Shown here piece by piece: positions 7,165 through 30,576 of a stretch of 40,694 nt of DNA. Location: the NCBI GenBank assembly GCA_017383125.1, contig JAFNYY010000114.1, positions 1 to 40,694 of the forward strand. Reading direction: 5' to 3'. Both the position numbers and the translations under genes were made by a program. Each line of letters starts with the position of its first letter. Position 1 is the stretch's first letter. The notes below the pieces were generated by a model. It saw only the letters and a list, made by a program, of their open reading frames with translations. It was not told the DNA's origin and ran no database searches. Source of the stretch: Schwartzia sp. (in: firmicutes) (GTDB lineage Bacteria; Bacillota; Negativicutes; Selenomonadales; Selenomonadaceae).

Positions 7165-7221
7165 ACGTTACTTTAAGAGTTAGTGTATAATATGGTGAAG
7201 CCTTTTGCCAAAGTTTTAATG

Positions 7222-7341
7222 TATGAAAGGCTCCCCTTTAGGGGAGCTGTCAGCGAAGCTGACTGAGGGGTGAATGGATTCTTATGCAGCCTGTCACCCC
7301 TCCGCCCTTCGGGCACCTCCCCTAGAGGGGAGGCTTTCATA
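7222..7341. repeat. Dispersed palindromic repeat, full two-half copy
   Basis: The first half is gaaaggctcccctttagggg then agctgtcagcgaagctgact, ending gaggggtg. The second half, inverted, is cacccctccgcccttcgggc then acctcccctagaggggaggctttc. The outer ends gaaagg and gctttc pair, so the element can fold into one long cruciform with two side hairpins. It separates DUF4392 from pxpB. Confidence 0.8.
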
Positions 7342-9971: not shown

Positions 9972-10142
9972 GCAGCCTCCCCTTTAGGGGAGGTGGCCGA
10001 GCGGTAGCGAGGTCGGAGGGGTAAACCTTCTCCGATGGAGAAGGTGGCTGAGCGGCAGCGAAGTCGGATGAGGTCATATGGATACGGCCTCATTTACCTC
10101 ATCCACCGCCTACGGCGGTCCCCCTTCCCCAGAGGGGAATGT
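9972..10142. repeat. Composite of dispersed repeats between DUF1445 and pxpA
   Basis: Two related units lie head to tail. Unit one (about 9975-10021) has cctcccctttaggggagg then gccgagcggtagcgaggtcg-gaggggt. Unit two (about 10026-10140) has accttctccgatggagaagg then ctgagcggcagcgaagtcgg-atgaggt, and its inverted right half cctcatccaccgcctacggc-ggtcccccttccccagagggg. The two units represent two subtypes of the same architecture: an apical hairpin, a GC-rich side hairpin and a terminal gaggggt or atgaggt. Confidence 0.75.
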
Positions 10143-10177
10143 ATCTTTGGTAAATAGAATGTTAAGAGGAATAAATC

Positions 10178-11175: not shown

Positions 11176-11199
11176 AATCTTTGTATTTCTATAGCAACA

Positions 11200-11440
11200 G
11201 GCGTTGAACGGAAGAGTAAGCTGCGAGAAGACTGCAGAGAGACCCCGGTTGGTGAAAGGGGTTGTCAAGGCGAAGCCGAAGTGCATCCGTGAGCCGCAAA
11301 GCCGAAGTCACAGTAGGCTTTGCCGTAGGGAAGGCGTTAACTTCTTCAAGTGGATAATTCTGCAGTATTACAGGCAGTTTTATCAAGTGGAGTGGAACCG
11401 CGCAGACGCGTCTCTATATGAGATGCGTCTGTTTTTTTTA
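11200..11440 (+). promoter_or_regulatory. Cysteine T-box riboswitch with terminator
   Basis: The T-box sequence TGGAACCGCG is at 11393-11402, preceded by aagtggag. The leader base stem pairs acgga (11208-11212) with tccgt (11286-11290), with AGTA (11214-11217) and AGAGA motifs inside and acccc/ggggt as a further helix. The specifier loop reads gccgaagTGCatcc, putting codon TGC (Cys) at 11282-11284. The terminator stem cagacgcgtctc/gagatgcgtctg lies at 11403-11431 with eight T at 11432-11439. Uncharged tRNA-Cys should stabilise the antiterminator and switch on cysE, cysS and the genes behind them. Confidence 0.92.
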
Positions 11441-22226: not shown

Positions 22227-22271
22227 ATCATCATCTCCTAGACTTTGCTATGTTGTTTTCGGATTAGACTA

Positions 22272-22416
22272 TACCGCCGAATATGATTAGACGAAAACAC
22301 ATTTGCATTCGGTTATCCACGCAACGGTACTAAGCTCCTGTTGCACAAGCCTATTTGCAGGTCGCTGAGTACCGGCGTGGATAAACGGTTTTCTTACTAA
22401 TCATATTATGGCGGAA
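22272..22416. ncRNA. Structured element, copy A (candidate noncoding RNA or folded DNA site)
   Basis: Outer stem: ccgccgaatatgattag (22274-22290) with ctaatcatattatggcgg (22397-22414). Next stem: gaaaac (22293-22298) with gttttc (22389-22394). Then a 13-nt one-sided bulge, a 10-bp stem ttatccacgc (22313-22322) with gcgtggataa (22375-22384), and cggtact with agtaccg. The apex has a hairpin aagct-cctgttgcaca-agcct whose loop cctg can pair with downstream cagg (22358-22361), a possible pseudoknot. The core is shared with 30405-30550. It lies between gltX and the DUF4127 gene. The transcribed strand is unknown. I do not recognise a known family. Confidence 0.6.
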
Positions 22417-22429
22417 CATACATTAAGGA

Positions 22430-22478
22430 ATCCTTCCCCTTTGGGGAAGGGGGACCGCCGAAGGCGGTGGATGAGGTT
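22430..22478. repeat. Dispersed repeat, atgaggt subtype
   Basis: ccttcccctttggggaagg, then gaccgccgaaggcggtgg, then atgaggttg, ending 4 nt before the gltX stop codon. Same subtype as the right part of the copy at 10026-10140 (inverted). Confidence 0.75.
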
Positions 22479-24182: not shown

Positions 24183-24207
24183 AAGAATTCCTTTGAGCTG
24201 ATAACCC

Positions 24208-24393
24208 CTCAGTCAGCTTCGCTGACAGCTCCCCTTTCAGGGGAGCCTTTGAGATTGATTAAAAGTTACCTCAGTCAGCTTCGCTGACAGCTCCCCTTTC
24301 AGGGGAGCCTATGAGATTGATTAAAAGTTACCTCAGTCTGCTTCGTAGACAGCTCCCATGGAGGGGAGCCTATGAGACCGGTTATAGGTTACA
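24208..24393. repeat. Tandem array of three 62-bp repeat units
   Basis: Units begin with ctcagtc at 24208, 24270 and 24332, an exact 62-bp period. Each has tcagcttcgctga, then agctcccctttcaggggagc, then a tail tatgagattgattaaaagtt. Units one and two are almost identical. Unit three has diverged in a compensatory way (tctgcttcgtaga keeps its stem) and has the tail gagaccggttataggtt, like the copy near 332-346. The array ends on the dapL stop codon at 24389-24391. Confidence 0.85.
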
Positions 24394-27676: not shown

Positions 27677-30304
27677 TTGAAGAACTTATCGGGTAATGAG
27701 CTTCGCGAAGCCTATTTGAAATTTTTTGCTGAGAAGAAGGGACATCTTCGTCTGGACAGCGCCTCGCTGATTCCGGAGAATGACCCCACTCTTCTCATGA
27801 TTGGTGCCGGCATGGCTCCCTTCAAGCCGTTCTTTACCGGCAAGATGAAGCCGCCTCGCACTCGTATCACCACAAGCCAGCGCTGCGTTCGCACCGGCGA
27901 TATTGAGAATGTCGGCCGCACCGCTCGCCATCAGACTTTCTTTGAAATGCTGGGCAACTTCTCCTTTGGCGATTACTTCAAGGCTGAGGCTATTCCCTGG
28001 GCATGGGAGTTCCTTACTGAAGTACTGGAGATGCCGAAGGATAAGCTCTATGCTACCGTATATCCGAAGGATGACGAGGCTGTAGAAATCTGGAAGCAGC
28101 AGCCCGGCTTCTATCAGGACCATATCGTAAAGCTGGAAGACAATTTCTGGGAAATCGGCCCCGGCCCCTGCGGTCCGGACTCCGAAATCTACATCGACCT
28201 CGGTGCAGATCGCGGCTGCGGTCAGCCCACCTGCGGTGTAGGCTGCGACTGCGACCGTTATTTGGAAATCTGGAACCTTGTATTCACTCAGTTTGACCGT
28301 ACCGAGGACGGCGAGTATCTGCCGCTGGCCAAGAAGAACATCGATACCGGTGCCGGCCTCGAGCGACTTGCTTCCGTACTTCAGGGCAAGCGCTCCAACT
28401 TTGAAACCGACCTTCTTTTCCCGATCATTGAATACACCGCCAAGACCTGCGGCAAGGAATATGGTGCAAATCCTCAGGATGATATCTCCATGAAGGTTAT
28501 TGCCGACCATGCCCGCAGCATGAGCGTTATGATTATGGATGGCATCCTCCCCTCCAATGAGGGCCGCGGTTATGTCCTCCGTCGTATTCTTCGCCGTGCA
28601 GTCCGCCATGGCCGTATGCTGGGTATCACCGGCAGTTTCCTGGCCGGTGCTGTTGAGGCTGTTATCAAGATTTATGAAGGCGCAGCCGGCTTTGAAGCTC
28701 TTACTGCCCGTCAGGACTACATCAAGAAGGTTATCAGCCTTGAGGAAGAGCGTTTCCATGAGACTCTCAATCAGGGTATCGAAATTCTCGATGGCTACAT
28801 TGCTGATATGAAGGCTGCCGGCAAGCAGGCTCTTGACGGTGAGCTTGGCTTCAAGCTCTATGATACCTTCGGCTTCCCCTGGGAGCTTACCGCTGAAATC
28901 CTTGAGGATAACGGTCTGACTTTGGACAAGGATGGCTTCGATGCCGCCATGAACGCCCAGCGTACCCGCGCCCGTGAGGCTCGTCAGGAGAACCAGCGCG
29001 TAGCTGTTCCTGACCTTACCGGTATTGATATTTCCGCACTTCGCCGCGATGAAAATGCCACCGAGGCAAAAGTTGTCGCCATCTGGAAGGACGGCGTTCT
29101 CGTCAACGAGCTTACCGACGGCGAGGAAGCCGGCGTTATCCTCGATGTTACCCCCTTCTATGCAGAGGGCGGCGGACAGGTTGGCGATGTGGGTTTCCTG
29201 AAGAGTGAGCTTGGCCGTCTTGAGGTAGCCAATGCCAAGAAGCTGCCGGATGGTACCGTATATCACATTGCCTATGTTGCCGAGGGTCAGATTAGGGTCG
29301 GCGACAAGGTTGAAATTGAAATCGACAAGAAGCTGAAGCTTGCTTCGGCCCGCAATCATACCGCAACCCATCTCCTTCAGGCTGCACTGAAGAAGGTTGT
29401 CGGAAATCAGGTAAATCAGGCAGGCTCCCTTGTAACTTCGGAGCGCCTGCGCTTTGACTTCTCCAACTTCGAGCCGGTTACTGAACAGCAGCTGGCTGAT
29501 GTTGAGGAACTGGTAAATGAAGAAATCCTCAAGGGAATCGATGTAGAGATTGAGGAGATGGCTCAGGCTGCTGCCCGTGAGAAGGGTGCAATGGCTCTCT
29601 TCGGTGAGAAGTACGGTGATATCGTTCGCGTCGTTACCGTTCCGGGATTCTCCATGGAGCTCTGCGGTGGTTCTCATGTAAAGAATATCGGGCAGATTGG
29701 TCTCTTCAAGATTGTCAGCGAGTCCGGTGTTGCTGCCGGTGTTCGCCGCATTGAGGCTATCACCGGTGCGGCTGCTCTCGAGTATGCTCGCCGTCAGGAG
29801 GCAGCCGTCAAGGAGGCTGCTGCCATCCTCAAGACCCGTCCGGCTGATGTCGTTGCCAAGCTGAACGCTCTCGTAGCCGAGCATAAGGAAATGGCTCAGG
29901 AGATTGCTGCTGTCAACGCTGCCCGTGAGAAAATGGATGCACAGAACCTCGTCATGGGCATGAAGAAGTACGGTGAAACTCCAGTAGCTATGGGCAAGGT
30001 AAATGCTGAGTCCATCGATGATATTCGCCGCATGGCTGACCTGGTACTTGAGCAGCTGGCCGGTGGTCTTGTCATTTTGGCTGCTGTAGCCGATGACAAG
30101 GTTACCTTCGTTGCCAAGGTTTCCAAGGAAGCTGTCAAGGCTGGTTTCCATGCCGGCAAGCTTGTCAAAGAGGCTGCTCAGGTTGTGGGCGGCAACGGCG
30201 GCGGCCGTCCGGATATGGCACAGGCTGGCGGCAAGAACCCCGAGAAGCTGCAGGATGCCTTTGATAAGGTTACTGAGGTTATCAAGGCTACTCTTGGTCT
30301 GTAA
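27677..30304 (+). CDS. alaS: Alanyl-tRNA synthetase
   Basis: An 875-residue class II synthetase charging tRNA-Ala and editing mischarged Ser/Gly. Domains in order: the catalytic core (NELREAYLKFFAEKKGHLRLDSASLIPENDPTLLMIGAGMAPFKPFF; RTGDIENVGRTARHQTFFEMLGNFSFGDYFK; GAGLERLASVLQG), the tRNA-binding helical part (GRGYVLRRILRRAVRHGR), the editing domain with HTATHLLQAAL and the second zinc-site half CGGSHVKNIGQ, and the C-terminal C-Ala domain ending GGNGGGRPDMAQAGGKNPEKLQDAF. The start is taken as TTG 27677 because gggggt lies 7 nt upstream and the family begins at this point (xKNLSGNELREAYL); the TTG at 27635 has no ribosome site. Confidence 0.96.
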   Translation: MKNLSGNELREAYLKFFAEKKGHLRLDSASLIPENDPTLLMIGAGMAPFKPFFTGKMKPPRTRITTSQRCVRTGDIENVGRTARHQTFFEMLGNFSFGDYFKAEAIPWAWEFLTEVLEMPKDKLYATVYPKDDEAVEIWKQQPGFYQDHIVKLEDNFWEIGPGPCGPDSEIYIDLGADRGCGQPTCGVGCDCDRYLEIWNLVFTQFDRTEDGEYLPLAKKNIDTGAGLERLASVLQGKRSNFETDLLFPIIEYTAKTCGKEYGANPQDDISMKVIADHARSMSVMIMDGILPSNEGRGYVLRRILRRAVRHGRMLGITGSFLAGAVEAVIKIYEGAAGFEALTARQDYIKKVISLEEERFHETLNQGIEILDGYIADMKAAGKQALDGELGFKLYDTFGFPWELTAEILEDNGLTLDKDGFDAAMNAQRTRAREARQENQRVAVPDLTGIDISALRRDENATEAKVVAIWKDGVLVNELTDGEEAGVILDVTPFYAEGGGQVGDVGFLKSELGRLEVANAKKLPDGTVYHIAYVAEGQIRVGDKVEIEIDKKLKLASARNHTATHLLQAALKKVVGNQVNQAGSLVTSERLRFDFSNFEPVTEQQLADVEELVNEEILKGIDVEIEEMAQAAAREKGAMALFGEKYGDIVRVVTVPGFSMELCGGSHVKNIGQIGLFKIVSESGVAAGVRRIEAITGAAALEYARRQEAAVKEAAAILKTRPADVVAKLNALVAEHKEMAQEIAAVNAAREKMDAQNLVMGMKKYGETPVAMGKVNAESIDDIRRMADLVLEQLAGGLVILAAVADDKVTFVAKVSKEAVKAGFHAGKLVKEAAQVVGGNGGGRPDMAQAGGKNPEKLQDAFDKVTEVIKATLGL

Positions 30305-30354: not shown

Positions 30355-30404
30355 ATCCCAAATTTAACTGAAAAACAAATAAAGAAACAGACTAATAATT
30401 AAAG

Positions 30405-30550
30405 CACCATCATATTGCACCCAACAGAAACACGATTTCTCTCGATAATCAATGCAGCGGTACCAGGCTCCTGCTTCACAAGCCTGATTCGCAGATAGCC
30501 AAGTACCGGCATTGATTAACGGTTTCTTTATGGGTGCTATATTGATGGTT
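30405..30550. ncRNA. Structured element, copy B (candidate noncoding RNA or folded DNA site)
   Basis: Same architecture as 22272-22416. The outer stem accatcatattgcaccca (30406-30423) pairs with tgggtgctatattgatggt (30531-30549) although its sequence is unrelated to that of copy A. agaaac (30426-30431) pairs with gtttct (30522-30527). The 13-nt bulge is acgatttctctcg. The stem taatcaatgc (30446-30455) pairs with gcattgatta (30509-30518), with three base pairs changed on both sides relative to copy A. Then cggtac with gtaccg, a hairpin caggct-cctgcttcaca-agcctg, and loop cctgc able to pair with gcag. It lies between the alaS terminator and the terminator of the convergent minus gene, so it belongs to neither transcript. 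Confidence 0.6.
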
Positions 30551-30576
30551 TTATATTAAGGAAGGTGATGCCTTTA

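Follow-up and report, generated by a model that had tools for sequence, protein, structure and literature searches.

The window, a stretch of 40,694 nucleotides from a Schwartzia sp. genome (contig JAFNYY010000114.1), harbors two copies of a structured element, which we refer to as copy A and copy B. Their positions and parts are as follows; for the copies, the strand that probably folds is given.

22272-22416, minus strand: copy A, a long hairpin or three-way-junction element
22274-22291, no strand assigned: 5' arm of the outer stem P1 of copy A, pairing with about 22396-22414
22396-22414, no strand assigned: 3' arm of the outer stem P1 of copy A, placed by fold and covariation
22299-22309, minus strand: 5'-side bulge of copy A, forming a small hairpin capped by a GNRA tetraloop (GCAA in this copy)
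22324-22373, minus strand: core hairpin of copy A, reading CGGTACTAAGCTC ... CGCTGAGTACCG on the plus strand, its minus strand containing a GA/GAN internal loop
22417-22430, plus strand: 3' linker of copy A, CATACATTAAGGAA (family consensus TTTACATTAAGGWAG)
22430-22477, no strand assigned: palindromes following copy A, a CCTTCCCC-type repeat of the CCTCATCC/GGATGAGG family
30405-30550, minus strand: copy B, between an alaS-like gene, which ends at 30304, and a convergent gene
30551-30565, plus strand: 3' linker of copy B, TTATATTAAGGAAGG

None of 200 shuffles folded as well as copy A or copy B on either strand, with z-scores ranging from -7.5 to -9.1 (-8.3 and -7.7 for the two strands of copy A, -9.1 and -7.5 for those of copy B), and the covariance model R1 matched copy A at 22269-22435 with 158 bits and copy B at 30402-30568 with 157 bits. 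A first-pass annotation of the window had described structured, non-coding elements at 22272-22416 and 30405-30550; these coordinates are right, neither copy is an ORF, and the proposed shared core is present in both. The 13-nt bulge that it had noted is conserved as well, with a length of around 11 to 13 nt and a position on the 5' side. The annotation matched this core to no riboswitch or ribozyme and suggested searching Rfam; a covariance-model search of Rfam 15 yielded no family at or above the gathering threshold for copy A or copy B, and the matches obtained for them at permissive thresholds were discarded, being at chance level only.

The element comprises about 165 bases, and its consensus is built from a long outer stem of free sequence, a GAAAAC/GTTTTC-type stem, the 5'-side bulge, an inner stem, a 2-nt bulge and the core. 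Complementarity of the two arms of P1 is retained between copies although their sequence differs. The stem of the bulge hairpin covaries between G-C and A-T, and the GNRA motif is also found in a distant family. The core hairpin, with the consensus CGGTACTAAGCTC...CGCTAAGTACCG, is the most widely conserved portion of the element, as captured by the core model R3, and terminates in a small covarying hairpin. A pseudoknot between the apical loop and a downstream strand, suggested as possible in the annotation, is not supported: the loop makes its own covarying hairpin of 3 bp, and the best loop-strand pairings sit in near-invariant columns, which are already paired elsewhere and display no covariation. 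In the aligned copies of the genus, conservation extends from about TTAACTGAC on the left to TTTACATTAAGGWAG on the right, and the conserved flanks of the element are TTAACTGAC (5') and TTTACATTAAGG (3'). In other copies, the position occupied by the CCTCATCC/GGATGAGG-family palindromes after copy A is taken by a small hairpin. This second palindromic repeat (CCTCATCC...GGATGAGG) is located at 10096-10148 and 22425-22477 of the window and replaces the core of several element copies in the genome of a sister species.

The fold is maintained despite considerable drift of the sequence, the median pairwise identity between copies being 62%. In a covariation alignment of 47 copies with a consensus of 50 pairs, 93.8% of the paired cells pair, compared to 30-41% when the partners are slid by 1-3 columns; double-sided changes are present at 43 of the 50 pairs, and the observed covariation score was reached by none of 500 shuffles. 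Stems of three true orthologues, however, did not change significantly more slowly than unpaired positions (18/318 versus 12/150, p 0.42), which indicates that the covariation mostly reflects how spreading lineages differ from each other and does not prove selection at individual sites. Neutral correction of one arm by the other may be the sole source of the covariation; however, such a process would leave the unpaired motifs unmaintained.

A GNRA loop on a 2-bp stem is present on the minus strand in 99 of 113 scorable copies, six of the eight possible variants of the loop are seen, and a U.U mismatch is also located on the minus strand. Among 126 distinct copies, 176 cells of the G.T type are non-Watson-Crick pairs on the minus strand versus 88 on the plus strand; as the copies are related, a p-value can only serve as a guide here. 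The first-pass annotation had read the plus strand; however, since the GNRA tetraloop and the GA-rich internal loop are found on the minus strand, where G.T pairs are twice as frequent, it is probably this reverse complement that folds, and its active form could be either RNA or single-stranded DNA. A GNRA loop would be equally compatible with an RNA that has its own function, and the copies could be functional structured RNAs of the minus strand, produced from many loci, for instance as a protein-binding or mRNA-end element, with old duplicates held by selection. This would be in accordance with a structure that stays intact at about 62% pairwise identity, with an architecture shared across distant families and with the minus-strand location of the GNRA variants and their covarying stem, the GA/GAN loop, the U.U mismatch and the two-fold G.T excess. 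We nevertheless consider it unlikely: G.T pairs account for just 2.9% of the cells, compared to 5.9% in five tRNAs from the same loci (a very small control), the stems of the true orthologues are not significantly slower, no promoter was found near copy A, promoter-like matches near copy B were at chance level only, and neither the neighboring gene nor the orientation of the copies is consistent.

The annotation had also suggested a covariance-model search for homologs, which revealed many copies with conserved pairing within and beyond the genus. Copies A and B are not a pair but two of about 59 copies extracted from the genome of the window (1.76 Mb in 134 contigs, 84% complete), in which BLAST detected at least 45 copies. 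Of the structured RNA-like element originally proposed, the structure, the homologs, the conserved pairing and the absence from Rfam have been retained, whereas a two-copy RNA with a pseudoknot has not. The genome of the sister species (G001, 100% complete) contains at least 60 copies, with 72 matches of the full model in 360 kb, a few of which overlap on opposite strands. Almost every sampled member of a second genus is matched by the full model as well, with weak matches in others, and the 49-nt core model R3 has matches in 51 of 379 genomes from the class and in five genomes outside of it. Outside the class, a distant Bacillota family possesses the full architecture (76 bits, E-values down to 1e-17, all 166 positions covered), and another Bacillota family carries a short form of the core in tandem arrays with a period of 86-89 nt. 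In these arrays (L390, L391, L392, L394, L395), the short core hairpin alternates with another hairpin. Rfam gave no match for the arrays and long copies of the distant families, nor for the repeat units of genome G054 described below, and in viral contigs and phage and plasmid collections, neither specific patterns nor the sequence of copy A produced a match; a short exact pattern is unspecific when scanned against a genome collection.

The copies are found in all gene contexts, with 31 between convergent genes, 28 between two plus-strand and 23 between two minus-strand genes, and 16 between divergent genes. A cis-regulatory element was ruled out, as there is no consistent gene or orientation. 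Among 52 copies, 37 have their plus strand on the G-rich strand (GC skew, p 0.003), and this bias may only mirror gene direction. Furthermore, a hairpin is located downstream of the element in 71 of 112 copies and upstream in 17; only 23 of the 112 copies have a downstream hairpin with the look of a complete terminator, and since no T-run directly follows the element, its identification as a terminator was rejected. Intergenic location, palindromic structure, frequent inverted pairs, tandem arrays, the preference for downstream hairpins and the location on the G-rich strand would suit REP- or BIME-like DNA sites, which bind nucleoid or topology proteins or end transcription and have spread mainly via recombination. 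However, conserved unpaired positions such as the GNRA loop and the bulges are unexpected in a simple duplex-binding palindrome, and with few complete terminators and a strand bias that might derive from gene direction, this explanation appears improbable.

Comparison with the sister species revealed a high turnover. Only 3 of 13 reciprocal best pairs share their site, with matching flanks on either side, counts that are a lower bound from a comparison with part of the sister genome's copies, and several sites common to both species carry copies that are only about 60% identical. At the site of copy A, the sister species has an interrupted remnant, replaced by another palindromic repeat, and at that of copy B a different copy in the opposite orientation with different flanks; an in-place inversion of copy B was rejected, since the two copies do not agree in their outer stems and flanks. 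One site, occupied by two convergent copies in the genome of the window, contains none in the sister species. With most copies lying off shared sites, the sister comparison further argues against functional RNAs. In head-to-head pairs of copies (L026 and L271; L021 and L282), the members seem to have switched places or orientation within one site between the sister species. Distinct copies in the genome of the window share at most 88% identity, which gives no sign of recent activity in this genome. Genome G054 contains near-identical copies (97-99%) within non-coding units of 580-815 bp, which are bounded by 17-bp inverted repeats, AAATTCTGATTTGCCGA, with 54 end matches in this genome and no clear target-site duplications. 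The G054 repeats are found at loci L304, L306-L308, L312, L313, L366-L368 and L373; no transposase-sized pair of AAATTCTGATTTGCCGA ends is evident among them, and L366 contains one candidate pairing of 1316 bp. Such units would be in line with the element being a relic or a structural component of some larger transposon, hitch-hiking without being recognized itself. However, the AAATTCTGATTTGCCGA repeats were sought and seen in G054 only, clear inverted repeats surround only its larger units and do not bound the copies in the genus of the window, and conservation of the flanks in this genus ends at the short linkers, which makes this origin very improbable.

Bacterial repeats with a complex shape and a drifting sequence are rare and usually imply an enzyme that reads structure. 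Considering the copy number, the covariation, the inconsistent gene context, the low site orthology, the G054 units, the tandem arrays, the architecture in a distant family and the minus-strand bias of GNRA loops and G.T pairs, we think it likely that the element is a small (around 165 bp), dispersed and probably non-autonomous mobile element, whose spread depends on folding. We infer transposition as the cause of its dispersal, with recognition in trans and a single-stranded intermediate of RNA or DNA. Such an element would spread only when one strand forms the long hairpin and the side hairpin, resulting in a three-way-junction shape. A putative trans-acting enzyme would then read the constant features, namely the side hairpin with its GNRA loop, the bulge of 2 nt and the CTAAGCTC/TCGCTAAG core together with the GA/GAN internal loop, leaving the stem sequence free to vary provided that pairing holds. 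Copies would insert into intergenic spaces, often at sites that formerly held another copy, and might bring along the linker (TTTACATTAAGGWAG) as well as a small hairpin resembling a terminator. The interpretation as a mobile element is weakened by the lack of signs of recent activity in the genome of the window and by the search for a mobilizer: no recurrent neighboring gene or mobilizing gene was found beside the copies; no Y1 transposase (PF01797) is present in G001, the complete genome of the sister species, and G000 has one weak match of 126 amino acids; reverse transcriptase (PF00078) is present in neither genome of the genus (G000 and G001), and the integron integrase (TIGR02249) was above the cut-off in none of eight genomes. 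All three were discarded as mobilizers, being absent or uncorrelated with the element.

Small dispersed palindromic repeats are a known kind of element; the architecture and breadth described here were not found in the literature searched, with most subscription journals outside its scope. REP sequences, BIMEs and REPINs, which are associated with TnpA-REP/RAYT proteins (PMC3116915, PMC3733652, PMC6006769, PMC8266576), are likewise high-copy, non-autonomous and structure-dependent intergenic palindromes that occur in inverted pairs and arrays. However, REP hairpins measure 20-65 nt each compared to 165 nt for the element, which additionally has a GNRA side hairpin and a large variable outer stem and occurs in a complete sister genome without a Y1 transposase; the GTAG or CGTC tetranucleotide at the foot of REP/REPIN hairpins was not seen, the element being flanked by TTAACTGAC and TTTACATTAAGG instead. 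MITE-like repeats such as the enterobacterial RU repeats (PMC2229807, PMC2759123) are also intergenic, non-autonomous and about 100-170 bp long, whereas the outer arms of the element are conserved in complementarity only, and no terminal repeats or target duplications were established in the genus of the window. Integron attC sites (PMC2727003, PMC3053210) share the folded single strand, the variable stems, the conserved unpaired positions and the preference for one strand; in contrast to these sites, the element is not part of gene-cassette arrays, and the attC core boxes RYYYAAC and GTTRRRY were not visible by eye at the foot of the aligned copies. Motifs listed as mobile or repeat sequence candidates in surveys of bacterial non-coding RNAs (PMC11109978) are similarly structured, with many copies per genome and inconsistent gene orientation; however, they are often located near transposases or integrases, and no such neighbor was found for the element. 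The copies might tentatively be assigned to an undescribed superfamily of mobile elements in several Bacillota families, in which the active form would be a single strand folded into RNA-type motifs (a GNRA hairpin, a GA-rich internal loop and a free outer stem) and the enzyme mobilizing it in trans would be neither a Y1 transposase nor a reverse transcriptase or integron integrase.

The element, which is both abundant and widespread, is missing from Rfam and lacks a visible mobilizer; such an enzyme together with its RNA or single-stranded DNA substrate, once found, would constitute a new mode of dispersal for small elements. In genome annotations, the element can be mistaken for a regulatory RNA or a terminator, and the family is easily detected with covariance models. 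The window itself contains a third family of palindromic repeats, AGGGGAGC-TGTCAGC...GCTGAC-TGAGGGGT, located at 284-345, 7221-7271 and 24195-24378 and locally arranged in tandem with a period of 62, and a T-box leader (126.8 bits) at 11195-11418, which lies upstream of a pair of cysE-like and cysS-like genes.
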